Shown here piece after piece: positions 17,535 to 55,690 of a stretch of DNA of 64,000 nucleotides. Both the position numbers and the translations under genes were made by a program. The stretch is taken from positions 143,666,961 through 143,730,960 of the forward strand of contig OZ038382.1 in NCBI GenBank assembly GCA_964036045.1, given 5' to 3'. The number at the start of each line of letters is the position of its first letter. Positions within the stretch are counted from its first letter, which is position 1. The notes below the pieces were generated by a model. It had not been told where the DNA came from and did no database searches. It saw only the letters and a list, made by a program, of their open reading frames with translations. Source of the stretch: Eutreptiella sp. 'Long Island Sound 2002'. Taxonomy: Eukaryota > Euglenozoa > Euglenophyceae > Eutreptiales > Eutreptiaceae.

Positions 17535-19117
17535 TGGCGCGTATCCCATGCCCTCCCTCCTGAATGGCTTTGTGTTTCATGGTATCTAACCCGAGCTGCT
17601 TCCTGGTTTTATGCCGTGTGCCACTGTGAAGCCAATCAGCCGACAATTTGTGTTTGTATTAATTTCATGCAATTTCGGGCATAGAATTTCACGAATGTTA
17701 TTACGGAATTGCTTCCTAGTCAACAGGATACATATGAATCCCCTCCAGAAATTCAGTCGAGGCCTGTCCGCACGCGTGTGCTCGCCTGGTGCTCCTGTTG
17801 TGTGCGCGTGCTCCCTGCTGCTCGGACTATGCTTTAATGCGGGCCGAGCGACTGAAAACTCTTCGGAACGGGTGCTAATAGTGGTAGCTCTATCCTGTTA
17901 CCAAAATGGATACGGATCGGAAGCTAGGGCGACTCCAGTGGAAGATAGAAGGCCTGAGGTTAAGGATCTGGCTAAACCCTGGTGTGGCTCGATCCGCCCA
18001 CACTGGTTGTCGGTCACTGACTGGTACACGTTAATGGGCGCATTTGCTTGGGCAGTGCCACGCCTACGTGTATGGGGGATCACAAGTCCCTGGAAGCTGG
18101 AGGAGTCCTAGTGGAAGAGGAGTGGAAGTGGAAGTGGCTGAGGTAGACGCACCGGAACAGAAGAAAGTACGTCGTTCGTTGCTCCGCAATCCGCAAGTGA
18201 ACTCTTCTTTTTCTTCTTGTGCTTACGTTTGTCACTTTGCCACGTCCCTCCGTTGAGTTCCTCACCCATCTTACGTATCCTATGTTGCAACGGACATTAT
18301 CTTCTTTGAATACTCACAAGTGTATGAATCTTTGAACTCACTGTTTTGCACATTAGCTCCATTCATGCTTGGTGCTCATTACAGGAAGGTTGACAAGCAT
18401 GCTTGAGTGTTGGACAATTGTCTCCTTTGATGATGCAATATATTTGGTTGCATGGCCACATGCATTCATTTCATTCATTCAAGTGACCTTTGCAAGTGTG
18501 GTGCTACAGTGCTTGGTCAGGTTCACTTCCACATATCATGTGTTGGTTCATTGCTTGTTTGTTGATAAAGATCATTGAGTCGCGATTGCTTTCTTCCTGG
18601 ATCTTGTGCCTACTGCCTCTAAGGAGATTGCCCAAGTTTTTTGCTACTCTAGATGAGGAGGTAATTTTGTGAAGTGCTTTGAGGTGAATGTTTTGGAGCA
18701 TCCTTTGCACTTTGTGTCCGTTTGATTGCCGCATCTCCCTAACCGCACGCCTCTCCAAGAAGTAGGTCGATCCTTTGCAATCAGCTTGAACCACGTGAGA
18801 GTGTAGACTAACGGTTTGCCTTCTGTCTAACATGTCAAGGATATCTTCTCGTGGAAGCCGGTTGGAGATGTGGTCCGCCCATGGCGTAGTCTGATTCTTG
18901 GTTCTTTTGATCCTTGCCGTGTGGTTCACCAAGCGCCCACCTTTCCCTAAGAGTTGAGGTCAGGTCTCTACCTCAGGTGAACTTGGGACCCTTCCTCTTC
19001 ATGTGTGGTGCAAGGCAATCGGCTCTCTTCTTCCAAGTGGTTAGGCAACCTCCTCTCCTCTTGGGATAGGGACCCTGTCCTCTCCTCTTTGGATAGGGAC
19101 ACTTTCTTCTTGGGATA
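17535..19117 (+). repeat. 5' LTR, left part
   Basis: Aligns colinearly with 39690-41272 of the 3' LTR. It begins TGGCGCGTATCCCATG and is interrupted after ...CTTCTTGGGATA by the DNA transposon. The last 60 bp are the start of a CTCTCCTCTTGGGATAGGGA minisatellite inside the LTR. Confidence 0.9.
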
Positions 19118-19210
19118 CCCTGCATGCGCGCTACAGGGTATTGCCGCGCGATGGCTCAGTGCGCACTACAAAACTCTAGCGCGCGTCATGGCGCGCGCTA
19201 TGGCTCGGGG
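19118..19210 (+). promoter_or_regulatory. left TIR and subterminal motif array
   Basis: After CCCTGCATGCGCGCTACAG come further motif copies at about 19143 (TGCCGCGCGATGG), 19161 (TGCGCACTAC), 19178 (AGCGCGCGTCATGG) and 19191 (GCGCGCGCTATGG), spaced 15-20 bp. Subterminal repeat arrays of this kind in other DNA transposons bind the transposase; that role here is inference. Confidence 0.7.
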
Positions 19211-19275
19211 TCTTGGGTTTGTAACCCCATGTCCTAATAAGCAGGGCAAAAACGCCTATGTTTCTAAAATTTCAG

Positions 19276-21199
19276 ATGCTTCCCGCACCGCATGGGACAC
19301 TGTCAATGTCAGGAAAGAATGCCAGCATTTTGGGCCCCCACTATGGGTGGTCCTTGTAGAAGAACGAGGACCCTTTGGCGGACCTAGTTGAGTTTTTTTG
19401 CTCAGGGTCTGCCGTCCAACGGTTTTTGTGGGCCAGGTTGGAAGAAAGGGTCCCCGTGTCTGAAGCAGAGAAGAAGCGTCGCAGGACCGAGGCTGCCAAC
19501 GCCGTCACACCCCTGTCGGTTGTGGACTTGGTCCTGCTCCTGAAGATTCCAAGAAGAAGGTATTATTGCGCGCGCTTTGCATGCGACATCGCTCGCACTT
19601 CCGCTCATAGCACGCGCTTTGTTGATTTGTGCGCGCGCTACGTTCTCATGTTGGGCGCGCTATTTTCCTCAGGTACAAAGATTTGATTACTTTAGCGAGA
19701 AGTAAGGTCCCCACACACCTTTTTTCTCTCCCGTCCTATGCTAGTTTCGCCACAGAATGGAACCAGCTTGCAAGTAGGCAGCTTTTACAGGTTGCCGTGC
19801 ACACAGATGGGGTCACAGTCTTTTCGCAGTGGCCCCTGCAGCACTTTTTTGACTATATATTTTCCTTTGATTCCATTGTTCCTAACCTCCAATACCCCAG
19901 GGAGTGCCAAGGAGAGCTGTGGATCATTGTGAGGGGGGATGGGTTGCCTTGTGGGGGGGAATCGTGGTGCCAAATGTCCATTTCCTTTGCCAACCATGGT
20001 CACTTGGCAAGGATGTTGTCCTACCCCTGGACTGTTAACGTCGCCTTTTGTGGTGAGAAGTCCACCTCTGTGTTGTCCCAGGTCTGGGCTAACAATCTTG
20101 CTTTTCTTCAGAGTGCCCTTGACAGTGGTGTGGTTCCCATCCGGGGTGCATCCAGCCGCTGCAGGACTTTCTGCGGTGGGGATAGCCCTTGGCTGCGTCG
20201 GTTGTCGGGTGTCACTACACATTGGATGGCAGGTAGTCTGTTCACTTACATGACGTGGTGCAAGTCCAGTGCAACATGGTTGCAACAGGATGTGGATAGC
20301 AGTTGCTAGGGCTTATTGGAACTGGGGCCAAGTGCCGGCCCATGGATATTTTTGGTGTTGTCCAGAGCAGGTTGTTGAAGGTGCCTCTGAGGCGGCGTCA
20401 CCTTATACCATGTGTTCTGCACCTTCTGATTTTTGTAGGGAGGCAGGTCACTACCTTGGTACGCAGATTGGCCAAGTCTTTGCGTCCCAGTACTAGGGTC
20501 TCTGTTCAGGCTATTCTTCACAGGTCTGGTTGTCACATGGCACTACAGGGGACGGCAGAGCCAGATGGGGAAGAGACTTGGTGCCTTCTAAAGTTTTGGG
20601 AGGACCTGGCCCCCCTCCTTGGGGGTGACATGAGGATGCACACAGCAGTGGTTGCCATGTACATACTACTGGGGGACATGTATGGCACAATGTTTGAAGA
20701 GGGAGCATTGCAGGCTCCAGAGGTTGCCCTGGCTTTCCAGAGGTGGGTTTGTCCAGAAATAAGATCACCTTATATTAACTGGATGTTGCACGATGCTACA
20801 GTCACTATTCAGGCCATACAGCCCTATGGCATAGGAATGTTTTCGGGGGATCTTTTGGAAGGGAGCAACAGGGTGCTGAAGGACATTTGGTCCTCCTTTT
20901 GTGATACAGGTGGGGGCACAGGAAGCCTCGTGTCGCGCCGCATTAAGATGCTCAGGCAGGTTAATGAGCGTCTGTTCCTGTACTTTGAAGTACCAAGGTG
21001 GAACGGGACCTCCAGAAGCAACCTGTGCAATGCACAGAAATTGGCTGACAACGTTCGGGCATATTTTGCGGATGAGGAACTGTGGTACCGCGCTATTTTT
21101 TTTCCAGCGCGCGCTACATGCTATCTAGTGCGCGCAATGACCACTATCGCGTGCGCTATACTGTTTTCAAGCGCCGCATCCCTTGAAATGGCGATATAA
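19276..21199 (+). pseudogene. candidate DDE-type transposase of the 5.79-kb element
   Basis: The frame can start at ATG 19276, directly after TTTCAG. It reads MLPAPHGTLSMSGKN..., crosses a TAG at 19357, and continues to a GT-AG intron at 19560-19672. The second exon keeps the frame exactly (arginines followed by YKDLITLARSK) and contains WIIVRGDGLPCGG and WCQMSISFANHGHLARM. A frame change near 20290 leads to a third part with YINWMLHDATVTIQAI and GDLLEGSNRVLKDIW. The GDG Asp, and the Glu in LLEGSNRVLK, are plausible members of an acidic catalytic set, as in KDZ- or hAT-like RNase H-fold transposases, but I do not recognise the family. After about 21084 the sequence fills with GCGCGCGCTA motifs and is probably intronic. 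The TAG and the frame change suggest this copy is dead, unless a further intron or recoding is involved. Confidence 0.55.
19560..19672 (+). other. intron 1 (113 bp) with motif array
   Basis: Donor AAGAAG/GTATTATTG and acceptor TTTTCCTCAG/GTACAAAG restore a phase-2 codon and keep the protein frame. Motif copies lie at about 19566 (TTGCGCGCGCTTT), 19611 (GCACGCGCTTT), 19629 (TGTGCGCGCGCTACG) and 19652 (TGGGCGCGCTATT), with a weaker one at 19590. Confidence 0.8.
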
Positions 21200-21356
21200 A
21201 ATTGGAAGTAGCGTGCTATGACTACGCACCACAAATGTGCCTCCAATTGCAAATGCATTGACAGACACAGAGATTTGTTCCTTTTCTGTCCGTTTTTTTT
21301 GGTGTTTTCAATTTTTTTGTTACTGCATTTTCCTTTTTGTAATATTGCTGGAACAG
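21085..21356 (+). other. probable intergenic or intronic spacer with motif array
   Basis: Motif copies at about 21089 (ACCGCGCTATT), 21105 (CAGCGCGCGCTACATG), 21128 (AGTGCGCGCAATGA), 21148 (TCGCGTGCGCTATA) and 21208 (TAGCGTGCTATGA) are followed by a T-rich stretch and a good acceptor, GCTGGAACAG at 21356. Donor phases I tested do not join the flanking frames cleanly, so this may separate two genes rather than two exons. Confidence 0.5.
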
Positions 21357-21383
21357 GGGTACTTTAATGTAGCCCTCTTGCAC

Positions 21384-24300
21384 ATGCAGCCCGTGGGCTG
21401 GGGATATCCGCCTCCTGCAGCACCGCCAACAACTGCTGCAGGGGCCACAGCAGCTGGTGCGACACCGCAACCACCGCCACATGCAGCTGTACAACCGGGA
21501 CTGCAGCAGCTGTCCACGACGCCGTGGAGCATGCAGACACAGGTACTTGCCGTGCGCACTACTGTTTCCGTTGCGCGTGCTACGCTCTTGTTGTGCGTGC
21601 TACCTGTCTCGTTGTGCGCACTACGCAAGTCCTCGTTGCGTGTTTTTTGTCTTGTTTTCCGCGTGCTTTGTCTTGTTTTTCGCAGACGCTGTCCGGGACG
21701 CTGACCCAGTTCTCCCGAACTCAGCCTCTGTGGCCCGCGCCGAAGTCCCCGTTACGAGCTGCCTCATAGCAGCTGTCTCCCATACTGTTCCCCGGTGGGT
21801 CGCCCACCTTGGGCTCCCCAGTGCGCGGCAGTCTTCCAGTGGGCCAAGTGCAGCAAGTGCTCTTCGGCCCACTGCCAGGGCAGCAGCAGCAGCCAATGCA
21901 GCAGCAGCAAGTGCAGTTGCGGCCCAGCAAGTCAGCAGCCCACAACAACAGCAGCAGCAGCAGCAGCAGGTCCAACCAAGACAGCAGCAACCCCAAGTGC
22001 AAGCACAGTTTCAGTCTCCCCCCCCCCCAGGGCCACGTACGGGCTTTGCCTTCAGCAGCGACTTCAGGAACCGAATCTGGCCCAACCAAAACAGCACCAT
22101 CTGCGTTCAAGGGCCTGACTGGGCATGGCTGAAGGACATGAGGCCGGCCTACGTTTTCGAGGTGGCCTTCTACAAGTTCTGGCGCCAAAGGGCCACGGCG
22201 ATTGCCAAGATCCCAGACGAAGCCGTGAAACCCTGCTGGCATGACGAGAGCATTACTGGCCATTGGTGCAGTCTGGCGAACCTGTTGAACCCCTCCGTGC
22301 CCACCCAAGAAAGACAAGCTGCCTGTGGACACTGCAAGGTGGAGGAGTACGAGCTGCTCTTTTCGTGCTGGGCAAGTTACTAGTGGGGTCACGTTGGGAC
22401 CCACACGCCTCCGGGTGCCACCGCAAAGACCGTCCACCACTTCTACTTCAACAAGGACCCACCGAGCTTTATCAACGCAACCGACGTGGGGGCAATGGCC
22501 TTCAAGAACGAGTGTGCCTCGGTGAGAAGTGCGGGAACACGTTTGCTGCGGGGTCAGCCAAGAAAGAAGCCAGTGCAGCAAGGGCACTTGCAACCGGCGC
22601 CAAAGTCAAAGCCACGGCGGTCAAGGACGACAAGCAGCCGCAGCAGCAGCAAGTGCAGCAACAGCAGCAGCTCCAACAGCAGGCAGCCGTGCAGCAGGCA
22701 ATACTGCAGCTGCTCCAGCAGCAGCAGCAGGTGCAGATGGCCCAGCAACAGCAACAGCAACAACAACAACAGGCACAGGCACAGGTATGCGCTATGTTTG
22801 CCATTGCGCGCGCTTTTGACATTGTTGCGCGCGCTCCATTTGCTGTAGCACGTGCGATTTAATTGTTTGCGCGCGCTACCGCCCCACCGTCTGTCCTGTT
22901 GTCACGTAGGTTGGCAGCTTCGAGCAGCTCCTGTGCCTGGGATCCCGCAGAGGGCCGTTGATGATCAGCGTGCCCGGGGACATTGCCGGGCAGTCCAAGC
23001 ATGCGGCCGACTGGCTTGATGGACGGAAGGAGCAAGGCCCCTCACCGGTGCTGGCCCGGGCTAAGCGGCAGATGGAGGAGCTGGAGGTAGACTGGGCAGA
23101 TGCCTTTGCCGTGCCGGAGACAGAATCCGTGACAGTCCCAAGGCCGAAGAAGAAGCGTACCGAAGAGCCAACAGCCACCAGCCACCTACCACCAGCCATC
23201 TCCGCCTCCCACACCGCTAAGCCCCCTCACCCGCCAGGCAAGGTCCTTGCCCAGAAGACCGCCGACCAGCAGCTGATGGCACAGGCGGCACAGAGCGTCC
23301 AACGTCAGGCGGAACAGGCCAAGAAGAAAGAGGACAAAGCAAAGAAGAAGAAGAAGGAAGAGGAGGAAAAGAGGAAGAAGAAGGAGAAGGAAGAGGAAGA
23401 GAGGAGGAAGAAGAAGGAGAAGGAAGAGGAGGAGAAGAGACGGAAGAAAGCAGAGGAGGAGAAAGCAGAAAAGGTAATGCAGTGCGCGCTATCGGTGTCA
23501 ATGCACGTGCTATGCATTTTGTCGCGCATGCTATGCCCCGTATTGCGCGTGCTATGGATGTGCTATGCCTCTGCGCTACTCTTTCCAGGCAAGCAAGACG
23601 GCACCGCAGCAGGCACCCCCGCCGCAGCTCGCGTCAAAGCCAGCACCGAAGCAGCCTGTCCCAGTCCCAGACCAGCCACAAGAAAAAGGAGCTCCGTGCG
23701 GTTTCACCCCACCCAGTACAGCTCCCAAGGCCAAGCAGCAGAGCAAAGCCGACGCGGACAAGCTGGCAACAGATGAGCTCATGCAGCGCCGAGATTGGTC
23801 CTACAAAGACGGCCAGGAGCCTCGGTGGATCATCTACTGCACCACTGCAATGGCGCCGATGATTGTGCAGGGAGCCGAAATCAAGCCAGCAGGGGCCAGC
23901 AGGGCCCCTCAGGACCACGTGGCCGTCATCATCCCCAACGATCAGTCGCGCCCCAGCCAACAAGGGGAGGAGGAGGAGGAGGAGGACGACTGGTCGGAGT
24001 TCATGCCCAGCTGCAAGGTGTTCTCCGCCAAAAGCAAAGCTTATGAGGAGTTGGACAAGTGGCAGTCTTGGCGGGAGACGTACGAGGCTGATGAGATTGA
24101 GGACCTCTGCCCCGACCCAAAAACCATGAGGATGTCCCCATCCAAGCCACCAACCCCAAAGAAGAAGCAGCTCCAAGGAGACCAACCAGCCCAGCCACCA
24201 GCCCCCCCACAAGAAGACGAGGGACCTGCCGAAGCTGCAGCACAAGCAGAAGCACCAGCAGCAGCTGCACAAGAAGAAGAGGCACCAGCCCCAGCAGCAA

Positions 24301-24554
24301 CTGCACAAGAAGACGACGCACCAGCCCCACCACCAGAAGAAGAGGCACCAGCGGCCGCGCCACAAGAAAGAGAAGGAGCAGCCCCGAAAGAAGAAGAGGC
24401 ACCAGAAGGAGCAACCCCAGAAGGCGACCCACGCCCACAAAATAAAGGGAACGCAGCCCCAGCTGCCGCTTGGGCAGAAGACCACAGACCCGAATGGGAG
24501 AAGGAGTGGGATGCTGAAGTGGTGGTCGAAAGCATTAAGGAGATCACTGGATGA
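21384..24554 (+). CDS. Gln/Glu-rich protein 2 of the 5.79-kb element (multi-exon)
   Basis: ATG 21384 opens MQPVGWGYPPPAAPP. Exons are joined by GT-AG introns at 21543-21685, 22785-22909 and 23474-23588, each preserving phase 0. The product has a Pro/Ala-rich start, poly-Gln stretches, then a Trp/Cys-containing region (CVQGPDWAWLKDMRPAY, CGHCKVEEYELLFSCW, FYFNKDPPSF, GEKCGNTFA) that could be a small folded or metal-binding domain. More poly-Gln, a Lys/Glu coiled coil with a KKKR basic cluster (23140-23473), and a long acidic Pro/Ala/Glu tail ending ESIKEITG and TGA follow. TAG codons at 21770 and 22381, plus frame changes in the poly-Gln at about 21930 and near 22520, break this copy or mark unrecognised introns. 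No known family. Its place beside the transposase suggests an accessory DNA- or chromatin-binding role; that is inference. Confidence 0.6.
21543..21685 (+). other. intron (143 bp) with motif array
   Basis: Donor ACACAG/GTACTTGCC, acceptor TTTTTCGCAG/ACGCTG; frame kept. Motif copies at about 21549 (CGTGCGCACTAC), 21570 (TTGCGCGTGCTAC), 21591 (TTGTGCGTGCTAC) and 21612 (TTGTGCGCACTAC), 20-21 bp apart. Confidence 0.85.
22785..22909 (+). other. intron (125 bp) with motif array
   Basis: Donor GGCACAG/GTATGCGC, acceptor TGTCACGTAG/GTTGGC; frame kept. Motif copies at about 22788, 22802 (TTGCGCGCGCTTT), 22823 (TTGCGCGCGCTCC), 22846 (GCACGTGCGAT) and 22867 (TTGCGCGCGCTACC). Confidence 0.85.
23474..23588 (+). 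other. intron (115 bp) with motif array
   Basis: Donor GAAAAG/GTAATGCAG, acceptor CTCTTTCCAG/GCAAGC; frame kept. Motif copies at about 23481 (GTGCGCGCTAT), 23501 (TGCACGTGCTATG), 23520 (TCGCGCATGCTATG), 23541 (TTGCGCGTGCTATG) and 23571 (TCTGCGCTAC). Confidence 0.85.
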
Positions 24555-24906
24555 CAGCGCGCTCTATACCTGGTAGAGCGCGCGCTGTAAATATGTTGCG
24601 CGCGCTACACTGTCTGTGCCCATGAGGACCTGTACTGTTGCACACTTTTCAGACCTTTCAGAAAGTGTTCTTGCATGTGTCCTGGGTTGGGTGAGCAACA
24701 CGGAATGTTTTTGAAAAGCAAGGGGTTTTTGAGAAACACAGGACACTGGAAAAGGCATGGTTTTGAAACATTTTACGGTTTCGAACAATTTGAAAAATGG
24801 GACAATATAGCGCGGTAGAGCGCGGGCAATAAGCGCGCTACAAAGGTGATATTTTTCAAAATTTCCGCGCACTATGGAAAAAAAGCACTGTTGCGCGCAC
24901 GCAGGG
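24555..24906 (+). promoter_or_regulatory. 3' hairpin, right subterminal motif array and right TIR
   Basis: An inverted repeat CAGCGCGCTCTA ... TAGAGCGCGCGCTG (24555-24587) begins at the base after the stop codon. Further motif copies lie at 24597 (TTGCGCGCGCTACAC), 24808-24842 (three, including AAGCGCGCTACAAAG), 24866 (CCGCGCACTATGG) and 24891 (TTGCGCGCACGCAGGG), which ends the element. Confidence 0.7.
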
Positions 24907-26008
24907 TAGGGATACTCTCCTCTCCTCTTGAGATACGGACATTCTACTCCCCCCACGCATAGTGATTCTCTTCTCCACCTGGGATAGGGACATTCTCCTC
25001 TCCCCATCGGATAGAGACTCTCTTCTCTCCTTGGAACAGGGCCTCCATGGATGTGCTCTCATTGGACCCGGGATATCTCTCTTTGTGCACTCACTCTGCG
25101 GGCCGGGTCTAGGTCTCTACATGTGACCCGGGTCATTTGTTTATCCAATTCTCTTACCCAATCCCTCTCCTAGTGCATGCGTTCTCTCATGGGTCATGGT
25201 TAGGCGAAATCCTCCTTCCATACACATGCTCTCCTGGATTGGATTATGGGAAGGTCGAGCTCTTCATGGCATGGATTGGTGAAGGTCTCTCCTATTAATA
25301 GGGCAATATATATGTGCTCTCTTGAGGCGGGACTCCCTCTTTTCGGGATAGGACACTCTCCCCATGGATATACTCTCACGGCTTTTCGAGTATAAATTCT
25401 CTTGGGATTTAGTTGGGGAATGGAGGTGCCACCGGATGAGGTTGGGAGGTATTGGGGAACCAGGTCCATGTTGGACTAGGGAGGAAACCCCGGAACATCT
25501 CTTCGTTGTTGATCCATTGTTTTGGGATGCTTTGGTGTAATCAAATATAATATTTCCCTCTCCGTCCATCCATTGAGCACGTGGGATTCCAGGTCTCCCG
25601 AGGGTATGAGACCAATTAATGTTTGAGGTCAAGTTCTCCATGGTTGCATGTGCATGCTGGACGGTGAGTGCATCTCATATCTCGCGATTGCTTTGCCATT
25701 GACCTCAAGGGGTGTTGAATCATGTGAGGTTAATTCTCCTTTGCCATGTTCCATGAGGATGACCACGACCTTCAAGACCATTGGGAGGTTGAGCAGTTTC
25801 TTTTTAGCCAATTATTGCTTACTGCTTTGTATGTCATTGGATTTTGGTGTACATTCTTTTGTCTTCTTTTATGTTAGGCGGCAAAGGTTGTACGTTTGTT
25901 TGTGTATTGCTGGCAAGCGGTCAAGATAGGGATTCATATTGATTGTCAATGCTTTGATTTTGTGCAGCCGTGTGCCTAGGGAAGGACCACCCCCTAGGAC
26001 ACTCGTAA
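24907..26008 (+). repeat. 5' LTR, right part
   Basis: Aligns with 41271-42364 of the 3' LTR. It begins with the second TA of the transposon target duplication, then GGGATACTCTCC, and ends ...GGACACTCGTAA, where the 3' LTR has CGTCA. Internal sequence starts AAACAAACGTAGC. Confidence 0.9.
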
Positions 26009-29152: not shown

Positions 29153-29409
29153 GCCAACCCGGACCGCAAGCTCAAGAGCGAGCGTCAGCGTCCCCAAGGG
29201 ATTCGTGAAGTTCAAACTGAACTCCAAAAAAAAAGGTGGGTCTCAAGGAGTTGCTCGAGAAGATGCTGACATCGGGGAAGAGTCCAAAAGAGGGCATGCC
29301 TCAAGCGGCGTCGCCCTCAACAGCCGCTCATTAGCGGGGCCCTTGCAGCCAAGGGCCCCAGCTGGCGACCCGGCCGCAGGCAAACCCGGCCAGAAGGTCG
29401 GAAGGACGG

Positions 29410-30276
29410 TTGACGAGGCACCATCCTCGGAAAGCTTTCTCGTCTCCTTCACCATCACCAAGTCCTCAAGAGGACGATGAGGAAGAATTACCCCCTCTTC
29501 AATCCGGAAGTGAAAGCAAAGGTGAAGAAGAAGAAAAGACCTGCAGCAGAGTCACCAATGAGCAAGGAGCTGCAGACAGGCCGCCAACCGTAACCTACAC
29601 CCTATACGAGGACCTCATCGAACTGCTTGAGGCACCCCAGAAGCTGGAGCTATTAGGCGTCCGCTTGGTTGGCGGCGAGGGACAGCTCCACTTGCGACTC
29701 CGTGTAACCTTCCAAGGGGTCGAAAGGTTGGTGAGTGTGCTGGTGGACTCGGGAGCCCAAGTCAGTCTCGTGAGGACTGTGCTCTTCACAGCATCTTGTA
29801 TCAGGACGAGCCCTAACCCGGTTTGCTTGAGGGTCGCCAATGGGCAGTACATGGGTGGAGGCAGGACTGAAGCTCACCTTGAGATGGAATTCCTGAACCA
29901 TGAAGACCTGTCGCGACCGGACAAGGGCAAGCGTGTTACCTTGAGTGGTACCTTTTACGAAGTGGACATGGACTGGGATGTTATTATTGGCTATGACTTT
30001 ATGGCGGCCACGGATACAGGTGTACAACAGGCCCAAAGTTCCATGACCCTCTACAACGATGACCGTTTGTCCTGGTTTACCGCCCACCTTGCATTTGAAG
30101 AGAGCCATTGGGCACACGCGGCACGCGAGCAGCTTTGCCGCGTTGTACGGGCAGTCAAACCATGCCAAAGGCCCCTCGACAAATATGGTTTTACTCCCAA
30201 ACCCTTCCAAGAGGCGGTTGCCAGATCGGGAGCAGGCGAGCCATCGGTAGATGCCTTCAGCTCTGCATACTCCTAA
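29410..30276 (+). pseudogene. Ty3 element aspartic protease
   Basis: LVSVLVDSGAQVSLV at about 29727-29770 carries the catalytic D-S-G motif, and WDVIIGYDFMA at about 29970-30005 matches the conserved C-terminal strand of retropepsin-like proteases. It would cleave the Gag-Pol polyprotein. A Ser/Glu-rich linker precedes it. The following 30277-30590 is broken between frames and holds no clear domain. Confidence 0.8.
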
Positions 30277-30591
30277 AGGTTTCCTTTATGCAAGACATAT
30301 TGGCAAACCAAGGACTCCGCATGGTTCAAGCGATGGTATGAGCATTTTTGGGGACTGCTATGGATTCACTGCAACCCAGGATGTGTGCCGCGCGCCAGTG
30401 CAAAATTTAAGTCCAACGGAGCCAAGGCCCGCCTTGTGCTGACGGAGAAAGTGTGGGAAGATGACCGAATGGTGAGGCTCCAAGATGATTTGGAACGTAT
30501 GACCCTAAACTCTTACGATTTTCCGGCGGGTCAGAGCATCTACAAGGATGCTAGGGGCCAAAAATTAGGCGACACGCCCGGCTGAACCACG

Positions 30592-31031
30592 GTGGTGTAT
30601 GTGGACGGCTCACTCTTGGATGAATTGGAAGCCGATATCCAAATGGTTGCGCGAGTAGTTGCCGAGCCCATGCGCTACATGTTCGCAGCACCATCCCAAG
30701 AAGCTGATCAATACACAGAAGGGCGTGATGACCTAACCACCGACGAGCTTGACGCTGTGGTGGGATACATGCACAACCCTATGCACGACATCATGTCTGC
30801 AAAAGGGAGCAAGGATGACACCAAATGGTGGGAAGATGACTCCATCGCCTCGGGCGCCTTTGATGGCAATGCATTTGTCCGTAGAGTGCTTGACCATTGC
30901 GCCGACCAAGATGAGCAGCGAGGAGGAAACGCCCCCACGTTATGGAGATATTTACCGGACAGAATGTGGAATCCATCGTGCCCCCAGAGCCTCTAAGGAC
31001 CCTCGCGCCTTGGACCCGGAACAAGACCAAG
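30592..31031 (+). pseudogene. linker between protease and reverse transcriptase
   Basis: An acidic frame (30592-30996) ends at a stop; the RT frame starts in overlap at 30749. No domain is recognised. A homologous linker occurs between PR and RT in related elements, so this is probably ordinary polyprotein. Confidence 0.4.
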
Positions 31032-31900
31032 TCCACCTGTCCCAAGATACCCATGAGAGGTCCATGGTGCAAGTGGCGACCAAGGTCAAAGCTTTCGCCG
31101 ACTCCCACCCTGGTGTCCAAGCGCTAAGGGAAAAAATCAAGGGAGATTATGCGAAGAACTTCTTCAGTGGAAAGCCCACCAAAGATCCTCCAATTCGTGG
31201 CCCGTATGGCGAAGCAAAAATCCGCCTCCGACATCCACACAAGGTAGTCTGGCAACGTTGGTTCGCTTTGAAGGGAGACCGGCTTGAAGCCATGAAAGCC
31301 AAGCTGAAAGAATTCAGGGAGTGTGGGTGGTTGGAACCATGCACCAGCGAGTGGGCCTCCCCTGCCTTCGTTGTTCCAAAGAAGGTGGCCGGGGAATGGC
31401 GGCTGGCCGTCGACTACCGAGGGCTGAACGAGCAAACGGAGTTCGACTCCTACACCCTGCCCCTCATCAAGGATATGTTGCAGAGGCAACATGGGCGACG
31501 GCTCCTCACGGTGATCGACCTGAAACACGGTTACCACCAAATGCCGTTGGCGCCGGAGTCTCGTGCATGCGCTGCCATGTCTACCCCGCTGGGTCCTCTC
31601 CAATGGAAGGTAATGCCCATGGGATGTGGAAACGGCAATGCGTCTTTCCAACGAACGTTGGAAGACATCCTCAAGCCCGTTGCCGACTGCGCCGATCCTT
31701 TCGTCGATGATATCATCGTTCGGCCAGACACGGAGGGTATGACCGATGAGGAAGTGCTTGCCGCCCATGAAGCTGACGTGAGGAGAGTCTTGGACCTCCT
31801 GGTCTCTTTGCAACTCACCGGAAGTGCCAACAAAGCCACCATCGCAGTCAACGAAGTGGAATTTGCTGGACACGTGGGTGGCATGGGGCAAGGGCAAGCC
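31032..31900 (+). pseudogene. Ty3 element reverse transcriptase
   Basis: The conserved RT blocks are in order: SEWASPAFVVPKK, WRLAVDYRGLNEQT, LTVIDLKHGYHQMPL with the first catalytic Asp, AAMSTPLGPLQWKVMPMG, and DPFVDDIIV with the catalytic F-V-D-D. It copies element RNA into cDNA in the cytoplasm or particle. The frame changes near 31890 into the RNase H part. The catalytic residues look intact, but the polyprotein is broken. Confidence 0.9.
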
Positions 31901-32520
31901 CATTCCCGGCAAGATTGCTGCGGTGGAAAATTGGGAGCGCCCCAAGACAGTCTCGGAGATGCACGCCATCCTCGGATTCTGCAATTACTACACAGGTTAT
32001 GTCCGTATGTATGCAGAAATGGCCGCCCCGATGACAGCCTTGCTGAAAGGCAACCGAGATGAAACCAAGAAGGGCAGCAAGAAGCCCATCATATGGGACG
32101 ATGAAGCCAATGATGCCTTTCAGGCCATGAAGCGCGCTTTGCTTGATAAGCTGAAGCTCTGGCTCATTAACCCCGACAAAGGGTTTGTGCTCCGTACGGA
32201 CGCTTCGGACTATGTGGTCGGAGCGGTCCTCGAGCAAGTGGAGGATGATGGAACCCACGTTCCCGTCGCCTTCTGGAGTCGAGTTCTTGCTCCTGGCCAG
32301 CGCCGGACCTGGACACCCAGAGAAAGGGAGACATACGCCATTATTTGCGCGCTACGTAAGTGGGCAGGACACATCAGACTGCAGCCGGTAGTTGTCTGCA
32401 CGGACCACCAGAGCTTGCAATCTTGGCACAAGGAGCATGAGGATACTCCCTCCGGCCCAGCGTCTCGAAGTGCCTGATGGCATGAGACTTTGGCCAACTT
32501 CGACCTATTAGTTGTGTATG
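31901..32520 (+). pseudogene. Ty3 element RT connection and RNase H domain
   Basis: The RT tail (TVSEMHAILGFCNYYTGYV) is followed by RNase H: FVLRTDASDYVVGAVLEQ (first Asp), RRTWTPRERETYAIICALRKW (Glu) and VVVCTDHQSLQSW (second Asp). A TGA ends the frame at 32475, and the usual continuation (VYVPGKDNTVADCM) is readable in another frame to about 32560. The domain degrades the RNA strand during reverse transcription. Confidence 0.88.
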
Positions 32521-32648
32521 TCCCAGGAAAGGACAACACGGTGGCGGACTGCATGAGCTGATGGGCGTATCCGGCAAGCAAGGGACTGGCGGATGTACGT
32601 GCCAATGGGGACGAGGAAGAAACCAAGGAGGCCAACTGGATCATCGAG

Positions 32649-33722
32649 ATGGAGAGACTGATTGGGGACGAAGGAGTCAAGTGCTTCGTCGTAATGGCAT
32701 CTGAGACCAACACTACCGATCGCGCGGATCGGGCGGTGATGCAAAATATGGCCGAGACAATGAGCATCCGGCCACTCGCGCAAATGCCTGCCAATGACAA
32801 GCCGCAATTGAAGTCCAAGGCTACCTCCTCGACGGATGCAAATCCTTCAACCTCTCAGTCGTGCCTGAAGAAAGCCTGGACGTCCGACTATGCCGACTCT
32901 GAGGCGTGGGCCCAGTATTACAAGGTGATCTCCAGCCCCGACGACGACGAAGAATGGCCCCAAGGACCCTCGGTCGAACATGAAAAAATGTTCTTGAATG
33001 GGAAGCTGCTCGTCCCTGAATCTCATGCCAAAGACCTACTGGATGAGTGGCATCAAGAATTGATGCACCCCAGTGCAGCGAGGCAACGGAGAGACATGGA
33101 ACCAAGGTTCTTGTTTCCTCACGGAGCCCGGGAGCTCCTCAATAAGGTGAAGAGCCACTGCCAAGTGTGTGCCGCCTGCAACCCGGCGAATTACTCGCTA
33201 GCCGGTGATCAACAATGGACGCCGATCCCCGATAGACCCATGGAGTCTGTCAGCATGGATGTTTTCTCTATGCCTGAAGTTAAGGTGGGTAAGGACACTT
33301 ATGATTGTGTAGTCATTGTTGTCGACCGGCATTTGGGCTATCTTGTTGCCGTTCCGGCCAAGAAAGAGGGTCTAACAGCCAAGGAAGTGGCCGAGAAGAT
33401 GATGAATTATTGGTTGACCATTTTTGACATCCCTGCGACGATTTGCAGCGAGAACGCCCCGCAGTTCACGGTTCGGTGGTTGAAGGCCATGTGTGCTTAC
33501 ATGGGTGTATGGCATGCCACGTCCGTAGCACACCTGAGCCGTTCAAATGGCGGAGCTGAAGTGGCCGGTCGCAGGTTTTTGAGAGGCTGCGCAAGCTTCA
33601 CCTGGAGAACCCAAAGAAGAATTGGTTTAAGGGGATGTGGAGAGCCATCCAAGTCTACCACGTCTTGCCCACAACCTCCGGGCTGTCTCGCCATCAAATT
33701 CTCTTTACCAGAAACAGGTTGA
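32649..33722 (+). pseudogene. Ty3 element integrase, altered active site
   Basis: The zinc-binding region has the HHCC pattern (DEWHQELMHPSAARQR ... SHCQVCAAC, about 33045-33180). The core begins ESVSMDVFSMP (first Asp), then IPATICSENAPQF, where the second catalytic Asp of the usual SD-x-G motif is replaced by Glu, then SRSNGGAEVAGR with the third acidic residue. Integrase inserts the cDNA copy in the nucleus. The Asp-to-Glu change and a frame change near 33570 argue against activity. Confidence 0.88.
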
Positions 33723-34417
33723 GTCGCTCCCTTCCTTGGTACACCACCGGTCTCGCCAAAGATGCCGTGGAGGCATTCAAAGAGGCCGAAGACACCGCCA
33801 AACTGGTGAAGGATGCTCTTGAAAAGGAGCATGCTAAGCGGCAAGACAAGACACCCAAGGGCCCCGTCACCTCTCTCAAGGTTGGAGGCCATGTCTGGGT
33901 TGAAAGACCCGGGCCGTTGGGCACTCATTGGACGAAGACTTGGTATACCCCTGGTACGATAGCCAAGAGGGTTGGTCCGAGCACCTTTCTCGTTCAAACG
34001 GGTCCCTCTCAATTCAAAACCCGGCACGAGACTCAATTGAAGGACCGTGTTCGGGATATCACGGGGAAGCACGTGGACTTCCAGTACACCCAACATGAGG
34101 ACGATTCCGACGAGGATGAATACCTTGAGGAGGACGACTATGTCGTTGACAAGGTTTTGAGCCACCGGCCAAACTCCGCCGTCCCGGGTGGAATTGAGTT
34201 CAAGGTGAGGTGGAACGGATACGGGAAGTCTCATGACTCCTGGGTACCTCCCTCATCGTTTGTGCCCCGCATCAACAAAGTGTGGCAAGCCTATCTCGGT
34301 CAAAAGGGCGTCGATATTTCCGCCAAGGACTTGATGGCTCCCATCATCCAGGCTGAGGACGACATCTTGTCCCTCACTGATCCCTTCGTCGATGCATGCT
34401 GTACTATGGGAGGCTGA
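33635..34417 (+). pseudogene. Ty3 element integrase C-terminus and chromodomain
   Basis: This frame continues the integrase tail (GGHVWVERPGPLG and HETQLKDRVRDI form an SH3-like tail), passes an acidic stretch, and ends in a chromodomain: YVVDKVLSHRPNS, then IEFKVRWNGYGKSHDSW. Chromodomains on integrase bind modified histone tails and steer insertion in chromoviruses. It ends ...CCTMGG with TGATAA. Confidence 0.85.
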
Positions 34418-48026: not shown

Positions 48027-49180
48027 TCCCTCAACCCTGTACCCCTGTGTGATCTGGACGAGGTGCTACTGAAAGAGATCATGGCCAAAAATCGTGGCTT
48101 GACCCTTTTTGATCTCAAAAAACGATCTCCTGAGCACCTTTCAGGCACAGTTACAGGGTGTGAATTCCATGATGACGATCTGGAACCTGCCGCTGTGAAG
48201 GGGGATGCGGACGACCAACTGTCTGAAATCGCCAGCCCTGTTCCCTTCGGTGATCCCAGCTGTGTTGAACCCAAACACAGTGCCTTGCTGGCCCAGCTGT
48301 TGCTGGAAGAGGCAGACCTGGAGTCAACCTCAGAACCAACTTCCCCTGTTGGGAAACCTGTGCTGCACATGCAGCATACTTGCTCAGGTGAACCCGTGGC
48401 TCAGAGTCCTGACGCTCTAGCATGGCCTGCTTCTAATAACATGCCACCGTCAGAGCATGACACTCAGGAACTCTGACCCCTGTTGTACCTGAGGGCCGAA
48501 GGTATTGAGCGCCAGGAACGGATTCAATACCTCAGACAGACCTGGAAATCCTCCATCTGGTCTGAGGAGGACGATGAGTCCTACACGCTACCTCACCCTG
48601 AGATACCCCTAGTGTATTCTCTGTACTATGGGCAACAACATTCCCCTGAGTGGGATGATGGCTCGGTACCTGCTGAAACTGCTGATCGGCAGAAAATGAA
48701 TGAGCGTGGTAAGAGCAACCTCCATGCTGAGGAGGACTTCAGGGAGAAAATCGAGAGTCTGAACGTTGACCCCCGACTGAAGAAACTGCCCCTGACCTAT
48801 GAAAAGGTGTTCGGTGCCCTGCCGCCTCCCCCTTCCTGCAAAAACCTGATCCACATGGACCTGAAACTGAAACTTGAAGTTGAGAAGATGCGAGTGAGAC
48901 ATCGTCCCTATCCCGCTCCTCAGGAACAGGTTGAGGAAATCGAGCGCCAGATCCAGGAAGGCATAGATGCTTGCCTTGTGGAAGAATATAAGAAGGGGGA
49001 CTACCCCCATCATTGCAGTCCCTGCTTCCTGGTTGCTGAAACTGGATGGACTGCCCTGCGACTGGGTGTTGACTATGGTGAAGTCAACAAGAAAACCCAA
49101 AAACATTCAGAGAGTATTCCCAACATGGAAAACACCGTGGAGCGTATTGCCAAATGCCTGTACAAAACCGAAATGGCGCG
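48027..49180 (+). pseudogene. retroelement 2 pol linker and RT N-terminal part, truncated
   Basis: Still the same frame, with one TGA at 48474. After an acidic linker, RT begins: ACLVEEYKKGDYPHHCSPCF, TALRLGVDYGEVNKKT and IPNMENTVERIAKCLYKTEM. This is the finger region and the lead-in to the first catalytic Asp block. At that point the 65-bp minisatellite starts and no palm domain (Y/F-x-DD) follows, so RT is cut before its active site. Integrase is absent from the window. Confidence 0.8.
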
Positions 49181-50445
49181 TTGTTTTGCTTGTGCGGTGT
49201 CCTGGGCCACTTGGCTCCTGTTCGTCGGTCTGCTCGCTCGGTGTGTTGTGTTGCGTGAGCGGTGTCCTGGGCCACTTGGCTCCTGTTCACCGGTGTGCCC
49301 GCTCGGTGCGTTGCTTTGTGTGTGCGGTGTCCTGGGCCACTTCGCTCCTGTTCACTGGTGTGCCCGCTCGGTGCGTTGCTTTGCGTGTGTGGTATCCTGG
49401 GCCACTTGGCTCCTGTTCACCGGTCCGCCCGCTTGGTGCGTTGTGTTGCGTGTGCCGTGTCCCACGCCACTTGGCTCCTGTTCACCGGTGTGCCCGCGTG
49501 GTGTGTTGCTTTGCGTGTGCGGTGTCCTGGGCCACTTGGCTCCTGTTCACCGGTGTGCCCGCTCGGTGCGTTGCTTTGTGTGTGCGGTGTCCTGGGCCCC
49601 TTGGCTCCTGTTCACCGGTGTGCCGGCTCGGTGTGTTGCTTTGCGTGTGTGGTGTCCTGGGCGACTTGGCTCCTGTTCACCGGTGTGCCCGCTTGGTGCG
49701 TTGTGTTGCGTGTGCGGTGTCCCAGGCCACTTGGCTCGTGTTCACCGGTGTGCCCGCGTGGTTTGTTGTGTTGCGTGTGCGGTGTCCCAGGCCACTTGGC
49801 TCCTGTTCACCGGTGTGACCGCTTGGTTTGTTTTGTTGCGTGTGCGGTGTCCTGGGCCACTTGGCTCCTGTTCCGCGGTGTTCCCGCTCGGTGCATTGCT
49901 TTGCGTGTGTGGTTTCCTGGGCGACTTGGCTCCTGTTCACCGGTGTGCCCGCTCGGTGTGTTGTGTTGCGCGTGCGGTGTCCTTGGCCACTTGGCTCCTG
50001 TTCACCGGTGTCCCCGCTCGCTGCGTTGCTTTGTGTGTGCGGTGTCCTGGGCCACTTCGCTCCTGTTCACCGGTGTGCCCGCTTGGGTGCGTTGCTTTGC
50101 GTGTGTGCTATCCTTGGCCACTTGGCTCCTGTTCACCGGTGTGCCCGCTTGGTGCGTTGTGTTGCGTGTGCGGTGTCCCGGGCCACTTGGCTCCTGTTCA
50201 CCGGTGTGTCCGCGTGATTTGTTGTGTTGCGTGTGCGGTGTCCTGGGCCACTCGGCTCCTGTTCACCGGTGTGACCGCTCGGTGCCTTGCTTTGTGTGTG
50301 CGGTGTCCTGGGCCACTTCGCTCCTGTTCACCGGTGTGCCCGCTCGGTGCGTTGCTTTGCGTGTGTGGTATCCTGGGCCACTTGGCTCCTGTTCACCGGT
50401 GTGCCCGCTTGGTGCGTTGTGTTGCGTGTGCGGTGTCCCGGGCAA
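49181..50445. repeat. 65-bp minisatellite, array 1, about 19 copies
   Basis: CTTGGCTCCTGTTCACCGGT recurs every 65 bp (49213, 49278, 49343, 49408 and onward) with CGGTGTCC(T/C)GGGCCA and GTGCCCGCT(C/T)GG(T)GTG parts. Because 65 is not a multiple of 3, each translation cycles through all frames. Two plus-strand frames stay open for over 1.2 kb; these ORFs are not taken as genes. It abuts the truncated RT on the left. Confidence 0.93.
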
Positions 50446-50869
50446 CTTTTTAAGACGTCACAAATCCCTCAGTGCGGAGCCAGTGATACTATCATACAAA
50501 GCCAGAAGCTAATGTACAAAGTCATGGACTCGCATAACCCACGGGCCCCAAAGGCGCCCAGCGGTGTCATGTCGGAGCGGCGGCGGTAACCGAGGGGCAT
50601 TGGGGACCCGCTGGCAGGCGTAGGGATGAGTAATTGAGGGCAGCACGACTTCTGAGCCGCGCAGCTTGCATTGCATGCACCGAATACGTATGACATACGG
50701 AGGGAGGCACATAGGAGCGGTAAGGGTGCGGACACAGGGAGCGATGCATGGAACCAGCAGGGCGCCGTAGGCGCCACAGACGAAGTAAAAGACTTGAGGG
50801 AATGATGTGAGGCAAGTGAGTGAGTCAAGGCGCTGCCTATAGCGTCTTAATTGTCGGGAGTTCCAAGGT
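50446..50869. other. no gene recognised
   Basis: Unique-looking GC-balanced sequence between two tandem arrays. The right RT remainder is not found here. Confidence 0.5.
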
Positions 50870-54048: not shown

Positions 54049-54715
54049 GGGGTTGAGGTCACATCAAATTCAGTTCGTTATGCTTCACGAACAAATGTAG
54101 CTGCTTGGAAGGGCGGTTGAAGGATGCGTGAATGACGTATGTATGTTGTCAACTGGCTGACTGATTGACCGAGTAGTAGGCAAAATTAGAGTGAGGATGC
54201 TTGATTTTTAAGTGGATGCCCGCGGAAAGTGGTGGAGGACTCGAGGCGGTCGGTGGGGACGGCTGGAAAGAGGTGCACGTTGTAGCCCCATATTCGAAGT
54301 TGTGTCGAGCTGCGTAGCGTAGTGCTGAACGTCTTGGTACCCGCTGAAAGGTGGCGGAGAATTCGAGGTGGTCGGTGGGAACGCCTATGATGGGGTGGAC
54401 GATGTAGCCCCGTTTGGTCGAAGCTGTGCCGCTGTCGTAGTGCTGCGTGAAGTGGCCTGTAGGAGATCCTGCGGAGGAGGGAAGGACGCGGACGGGGAGG
54501 GGTCTGGGAATGGTGCTGACGGGCCCGAGATAAGAAGCGGCTAATCGCCAGGCTGACGCCTCCGACCGTCTTTTCGGGCGGGCTTACGTGGGAGTACTGT
54601 TTGGCAGGGGCGGCTAAACGCCAGGCTGTCGCCTCCGCCTGTCACTTCAGGCGGGCCAGAGTGGGCGGCTTAGTAGCCAGAGCGTCTCCAGCGGTCGTTT
54701 CCGCTGGGCCCAGGT
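54049..54715. repeat. short direct duplications (121 bp x2; about 70 bp x3)
   Basis: CCCGC(G/T)GAAAG(T)GGTGG with GGTCGGTGGG(G/A)ACG appears at 54219 and 54340 (121 bp apart). CGGCTAA(T/A)CGCCAGGCTG(A/T)CGCC-type blocks occur at 54538, 54609 and, diverged, 54667. No gene. Confidence 0.7.
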
Positions 54716-55690
54716 GTGCATGTCCCGGGCCACTTGGCTCCTGTTCACCGGTGTGCCCGCGTGGTTTGTTGTGTTGCGTGTGCGGTGTCCCGGGCCACTT
54801 GGCTCCTGTTCACCGGTCTGCCCAATCGGTGCGTTGCTTTGTGTGTGCGGTGTCCTGGGCCCCTTGGCTCCTGTTCACCGGTGTGCCCGCTCGGTGTGTT
54901 GTGTTGCGTGTGCGGTGTCCCGGGCCACTTGGCTCCTGTTCACCGGTGTGCCCGCGTGGTTTGTTGTGTTGCGTGTGCGGTGTCCTGGGCCACTTGGCTC
55001 CTGTTCAGCGGTGTTCCCGCTCGGTGCATTGCTTTGCGTGTGTGGTGTCCTGGGCGACTTGGCTCCTGTTCACCAGTGTGCCCGCTCGGTGTGTTGTGTT
55101 GCGCGTGCGGTGTCCTTGGCCACTTGGCTCCTGTTCACCGGTGTGCCCGCTGGGTGTGTTGTTTGGCGTGTGTGGTATCCTGGGCCACTTGGCTCCTGTT
55201 CACCGGTCCGCCCGCTCGGTGCGTTGCTTTGCGTGTGCGGTGTCCTGGCCACTTGGCTCCTGTTCACCGGTGTGTCCGCATGGTGTGTTGCTTTTCGTGT
55301 GCGGTGTCCTGGGCCACTTGGCTCCTGTTCACCGGTGTGCCCCCTCGGTGTGTTGCCTGTGTGTGCGGTGTCCTGGGCCACTTGGCTCCCGTTCACTGGT
55401 GTGCCCGCTTGGTGCGTTGTTTTGCTTGTGCGGTGTCCTGGGTTACTTGGCTCCTGTTCACCGGCGTGCCCGCTTGGTGCGTTGTTTTGCGTGTGCGGTG
55501 TCCTGGGCCACTTGGCTTCTGTTCACCGGTGTGCCCGCTGGGTGTGTTGTGTTGCGTGTGCGGTGTTCTAGGATCCTTGGCTCTTGTTCAACGGTGCGCT
55601 CGCCCGGTGTGCTGTGCGGTGTCCTGGGCCACTTGGCTCCTGTGCACCGGTGTGCTCGCTCGGTGTGTTGTGCTGTGGGTTGCGTGTGCT
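54716..55690. repeat. 65-bp minisatellite, array 2, about 15 copies
   Basis: Same unit and orientation as 49181-50445 (CTTGGCTCCTGTTCACCGGT). All three plus frames are open across most of it. Copies degrade toward the right end into TTGTGCTGTG-rich sequence. Confidence 0.93.

Follow-up and report, generated by a model that had tools for sequence, protein, structure and literature searches.

Positions 19118-24906 of the window, the whole 64,000-nucleotide stretch of DNA analysed here, hold a DNA transposon with two genes, whose ends begin CCCTGC and whose target duplication is TA. The window lies on contig 5 of the 2.28 Gb genome that was searched, and the ends of the element, at 19116-19118 and about 24906, are common to its copies. 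The features of the window copy, a member of the family termed W, are as follows:

19116..19117 (left) and 24907-24908 (right), no strand: target duplication TA
19118..19201, + strand: left end, with the terminal repeat from CCCTGC and irregular motif sites up to the ORF1 start (ends common to copies)
19202..19559, + strand: ORF1 exon 1, broken in the window copy (open frames, splice site)
19560..19672, + strand: intron 1, motif array, at a position common to four families (GT..AG)
19673..21086, + strand: ORF1 exon 2, transposase-like; in the window copy the frame is interrupted near 20300
21087..21386, + strand: ORF1-ORF2 spacer, with a motif array within 21087-21220
21387..21542, + strand: ORF2 exon 1, inferred from frame and splice sites
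21543..21685, + strand: intron 2, motif array (GT..AG)
21686..22784, + strand: ORF2 exon 2, rich in Gln, including a globular part that contains Cys
22785..22909, + strand: intron 3, motif array (GT..AG)
22910..23473, + strand: ORF2 exon 3, Lys/Glu-rich
23474..23588, + strand: intron 4, motif array (GT..AG)
23589..24554, + strand: ORF2 exon 4, ending at a TGA stop
24555..24906, + strand: right end; terminal repeat, plus motif sites within 24555-24608 and 24817-24906

The ends of W read CCC..GGG, as do those of a related family, A, and the target duplications measure 2-3 bp at the window copy, L011, L020 and L028 and 2 bp at L039 and L040. Further copies of W were sampled as 20 contig 1 regions taken at exact motif matches, among the first 100 matches listed. 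All 20 contain pieces of the element, full-length or internally deleted; identity is about 91-92% for the longest pieces and between 78%, within a simple repeat, and 100% for shorter ones. The ORF1 stop, TAG, is also the start of the first spacer motif in most of the aligned copies, a pattern from which the window copy deviates. Four copies (L006, L013, L025 and L028) with internal deletions retain both ends and at least one internal array, a retention that may be bias because the copies were found via the motif.

An AG resembling a 3' splice site closely precedes the ORF2 start in three families (L039:3210-3232, L043:3310-3338 and window 21345-21395), so the spacer array may sit within a 5' UTR intron or upstream of a trans-splice site. 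Elsewhere in the window, open frames at 29335-34417 resemble, by eye, a Ty3/gypsy retrotransposon with a chromodomain-like end, and two 65-bp minisatellite arrays with long open frames lie at 49178-50448 and 54714-55671.

Motif density inside and outside the element

A sequence-only reading of the window had described a motif repeated in the ends, spacer and introns of the element and inconspicuous in its exons. A scan of the whole window for TTGYGCGYGCTAY with up to 2 mismatches bears this out, giving 41 rows where 7.1 were expected and the largest of 100 shuffles gave 14; 27 of the 41 fall inside 19118-24906, some rows being the two strands of one near-palindromic site. The 8-mer GCGCGCTA, picked from the W ends alone and scored with up to 1 mismatch, occurs 17 times in the 496 bp of W intron (5, 4, 6 and 2 in introns 1-4; shuffled mean 2.85, largest of 500 shuffles 8) and 7 times in the 300 bp ORF1-ORF2 spacer. 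The 4,557 bp of W exon contain none, with 1.55 expected. Chance as the source of the arrays is rejected by the shuffle counts.

All four introns proposed by the earlier reading are bounded by GT..AG and carry the motif. The spacer carries it too and, in line with that reading, the exons lack it. Its account of the ends fared less well. The left end, credited with about five sites, has 3, irregularly spaced, at a threshold of 10/13 on the commonest bases; sites described in the right 350 bp were recovered at 24555-24608 and 24817-24906, but the non-coding stretch between them, 24611-24800, has none.

The remaining 58,211 bp of the window contain 13 matches, with no 3 sites within 100 bp, and none of the motifs of the four families described below forms a cluster in these other 58 kb, so the motif was rejected as a feature of the surrounding sequence. 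Genome-wide, the motif pattern with up to 1 mismatch has 15,243 + 15,585 matches and the reversed pattern 6,690 + 6,522. The sequence-only reading had named equal motif density in exons or unrelated introns, or copies whose introns lack the motif, as evidence against itself; instead, the exons lack the motif, copies retain it and it clusters nowhere else in the window.

Related families, helical spacing and constraint

P0021, distantly related to ORF1 (33% identity, 54% query coverage), served as the genome query; 145 of 5,160 candidates were scored and eight regions were read, which represent four families: A (L039/L040), B (L043/L044), D (L045/L046) and W (L041/L042). In ORF1 exon 2, A, B and D are 36%, 37% and 34% identical to W, and their dominant repeats are GTTCAACCG, GTTTGAATC and TGCAACTTTG, respectively. 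An 8-mer was derived from the ends of each family, with intron models drawn by hand for GT..AG and an open frame. The A 8-mer occurs 20 times in 880 bp of its own introns (6, 7 and 7 per intron) and 3 times in 4,909 bp of its own exons. For B the counts are 12 in 411 bp of intron (2, 5 and 5) and 4 in 5,307 bp of exon, the right end having been guessed at 7084-7760 of L043, as L044 reads N there. For D they are 16 in 703 bp (7, 1, 6 and 2) and 6 in 3,333 bp, after the terminal repeat of L046 had given the position of the right end and a new 8-mer had been picked; the 8-mer from the left end alone had matched 5 times in introns and 8 times in exons. None of 500 intron shuffles reached the intron count observed in W, A, B or D.

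Scored against the other families, each motif mostly stays near its expected count. B introns depart from this, matching the A motif 8 times in 411 bp (0.8 expected), so A/B specificity is not clean; the W motif is fully unlike those of the other families. A search for additional families yielded eight candidate regions, all of which turned out to be W or B. One locus, L029, is about 71% DNA-identical to D over part of ORF1 and has D-like repeats, by eye, in intron 1. Family A (L039:492-7662 and copies) is highly similar internally with frames mostly intact: 93 matches, from 92 of 8,818 candidates scored, are 95-100% identical in ORF1, mostly with a 506-aa open frame. The family looks young, with recent and perhaps current activity.

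The spacing of about 21 bp reported by the earlier reading was confirmed in W, where 14 of 19 neighbouring spacings (up to 45 bp) are 20-22 bp. Neighbouring sites are phased at 10.5 bp in 4/4 families, with resultants of 0.80 (n=19), 0.79 (29), 0.53 (26) and 0.61 (24) and a mean phase no more than 0.4 bp from zero; draws of uniform spacings reached these values 0, 0, 15 and 1 times in 20,000. Tandem duplication could be an added contributor to the regularity.

Copies were also projected onto the window element, which gave 5 to 19 sequences at the intron and spacer sites. There the average departure from the commonest base is 0.023 for the 260 motif sites and 0.062 for the 372 other sites, a difference matched by 0 of 20,000 circular shifts, and exon bases outside CpG also diverge by 0.023. 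Sites with a variant common to at least two copies number 5.4 per 100 within motifs, 17.2 per 100 elsewhere in introns and spacer and 5.0 per 100 in exons. Bias from the motif-based finding of copies was rejected, since the contrast persists once possible bait sites are removed: divergence is then 0.022 at motif and 0.062 at other sites (0 of 10,000 circular shifts as large) and shared variants 5.1 and 17.2 per 100 (2 of 10,000). Motif sites also have fewer single-copy variants (12.3 vs 21.1 per 1,000), a difference not expected if selection acted on source elements alone. CpG bases vary at 0.025 in motifs and 0.044 in exons. The window is depleted in CpG (observed/expected 0.70), which fits a methylated host but does not demonstrate one.

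In all four families intron 1 interrupts the identical codon, AG|G, which precedes Tyr; its contents differ, and its length is 113, 374, 104 and 204 bp in W, A, B and D. Because position is common and contents differ, sequence comparison makes the intron older than the motif within it. Introners are introns created by insertion of a repeat, and the arrays recall them in that the intron sequence is related to transposon ends, but here the introns interrupt genes of the element itself and intron 1 is older than its contents. The earlier suggestion that the introns were born from end repeats in this way is thus not supported for intron 1, and an introner origin of that intron was rejected.

Encoded proteins and what may bind the arrays

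ORF1 is an unclassified transposase-like protein. With E values up to 5 allowed, Pfam returned no family for any of the A, B and D ORF1 proteins, the window ORF1 gave one chance-level row, and a PDB search for ORF1 returned nothing informative. In an alignment of the four families, with the D/D/E assignment made by eye, only C253, C366 and H256 are invariant Cys/His between D170 and E402, and by eye the C(2)C and H(3-4)H pattern of CACTA transposases is absent between the second D and the last E. ORF2 is rich in Gln, Lys and Glu and gave no informative Pfam match and no recognised DNA-binding domain. It appears to evolve fast, being 18% identical between W and D over 188 aa, where ORF1 retains 34-37%; A and D are 38% identical over 32 aa, and the relatedness of B ORF2 was judged by eye only.

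The proposal that the introns are extra binding arrays is supported by the motif common to ends and introns in 4/4 families, by the constraint on motif bases and by the helical spacing, which together suggest that the introns serve as docking arrays for an element-encoded protein. One double-stranded DNA site, different in each family, would be repeated in ends, spacer and introns, the introns being the in-gene places where sites can gather without altering the proteins. The docking protein would most likely be the fast-evolving ORF2 product and, by analogy with VANC of the VANDAL transposons, we infer that it keeps the whole element open and expressed, combining anti-silencing with autoregulation. 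This reading as a whole is considered probable, with appreciable room for doubt. Counting against it are the single site of one D intron, the D counts from the left end alone, the imperfect A/B separation, the nearly uniform sense of the W intron sites and an ORF2 in which no DNA-binding domain was recognised.

The strongest competitor, though an unlikely one, is that the arrays bind the ORF1 transposase and serve titration or compact folding of the element, with anti-silencing uninvolved. ORF1 is present in every family and the ends, to which transposases and their partners bind, carry the motif, but ORF1 is the better conserved of the two proteins while the W motif differs fully from the others. 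A host protein such as a transcription or chromatin factor would produce identical constraint and helical spacing; it is nevertheless quite improbable, as each of four families in one genome would require a different host factor and none of the four motifs clusters in the other 58 kb of the window.

Two further explanations are given very little weight. A splicing or stability signal acting in RNA would account for the location of arrays inside introns and for the single sense of 15 of 16 scored W intron sites, nearly palindromic though that motif is, and the W introns alone would be compatible with an RNA role. The same motif, however, occurs in the ends and spacer, its spacing tracks the DNA helix, and in A all 6 sites of intron 2 share one sense whereas 6 of 7 in intron 3 have the opposite one; B and D arrays are of mixed orientation, and in A, too, sites of opposite sense share an array. 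An RNA signal was set aside on this evidence of spacing and orientation. It is just as hard to credit that the introns were made from, or passively filled by, functionless copies of the end repeats, introner-like or through tandem slippage. Slippage can yield tandem arrays at near-constant spacing and intron contents do vary between families, but intron 1 occupies the same codon in all four and the motif bases are constrained.

Families A and B may add a further domain to ORF2. The ORF2 frame halts at TGA CTA in A and at TGA CTC in B and then runs on for 195 codons in each (L039:6411-6998 and L043:6493-7080); the two pieces are 32% identical, with similarity beginning upstream of either first Met. 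UGA CUA is a leaky stop context. Among further regions, 14 for A and 5 for B, the stop is unchanged in the 9 and 2, respectively, that match at the site; the other 8 missed it. From these frames, programmed UGA readthrough in A and B is possible. The extra domain has no Pfam match and only chance-level PDB rows, and its AlphaFold2 model is poor (mean pLDDT 35); by eye it is reminiscent of 2-oxoglutarate dioxygenases, a lead only. The D copy that was read has no comparable frame of 110 aa and the W element ends soon after ORF2, so the arrays are independent of this domain. A bolder version of the docking-array reading, a new transposon lineage with introns as helical landing pads for a self-encoded protein, a demethylating domain made, in some families, by UGA readthrough and family-specific address codes, is regarded as improbable; if true, short arrays would strip silencing along the entire element.

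Comparison with known systems

Fungal transposons that carry TET/JBP dioxygenases have been described (PMC12730594), and the likeness is that a transposon may bring an enzyme removing methylation (PMC12730594). The extra domain of A and B differs in having no Pfam match, and W and the D copy have no such frame.

CACTA elements have family-specific end repeats and dissimilar binding proteins (PMC2613891). The present families resemble En/Spm with TNPA and soybean Tgmt* in a putative accessory DNA-binding protein, end motifs that differ between families and short target duplications (PMC2613891), which fall within the 2-5 bp of CACTA/CMCT elements. They depart from them in ends that begin CCC rather than CACTA and are CCC..GGG in W and A, where most CACTA/CMCT elements have 5'-CA..TG-3', in an ORF1 without C(2)C and H(3-4)H, and in a motif that is also present in introns.

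VANC21 of Arabidopsis, which binds YAGTATTAY, occupies introns of VANDAL21 as well as its intergenic and terminal non-coding DNA, and VANC6 targets carry a different motif (PMC5735166); VANC tandem targets are reported to diverge fast (PMC10398659). The common ground is a second element protein and related families with different motifs (PMC5735166, PMC10398659), together with motif arrays in ends, spacer and introns, the motifs of A and B partly overlapping. Binding and loss of methylation were measured for VANC (PMC5735166, PMC10398659), whereas for the present element both are predicted. VANDAL elements encode a Mutator-type transposase (VANA); ORF1 here has no Pfam family, and helical site spacing and the comparison of four families of one genome are further differences. 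Because defining features that were tested are lacking, the element is not filed as VANDAL or CACTA, even if its arrays, by analogy, would work like those of VANC or TNPA.

Binding sites in a transposon's own introns are thus already known: VANC is the case on record in which introns of an element are bound by the protein that it encodes. To this the present data add helical spacing, a constraint test, an ORF1 without classification, the comparison of four families of one genome and an intron older than its motif, a combination not found in any of the open-licence papers searched. The same layout with an unclassified transposase-like protein and four motifs suggests that the VANC strategy is older, or arose more than once. 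The four families supply matched protein-motif pairs for testing the joint change of a DNA-binding protein and its sites, and transposon introns would gain a positive role as safe places for binding sites.
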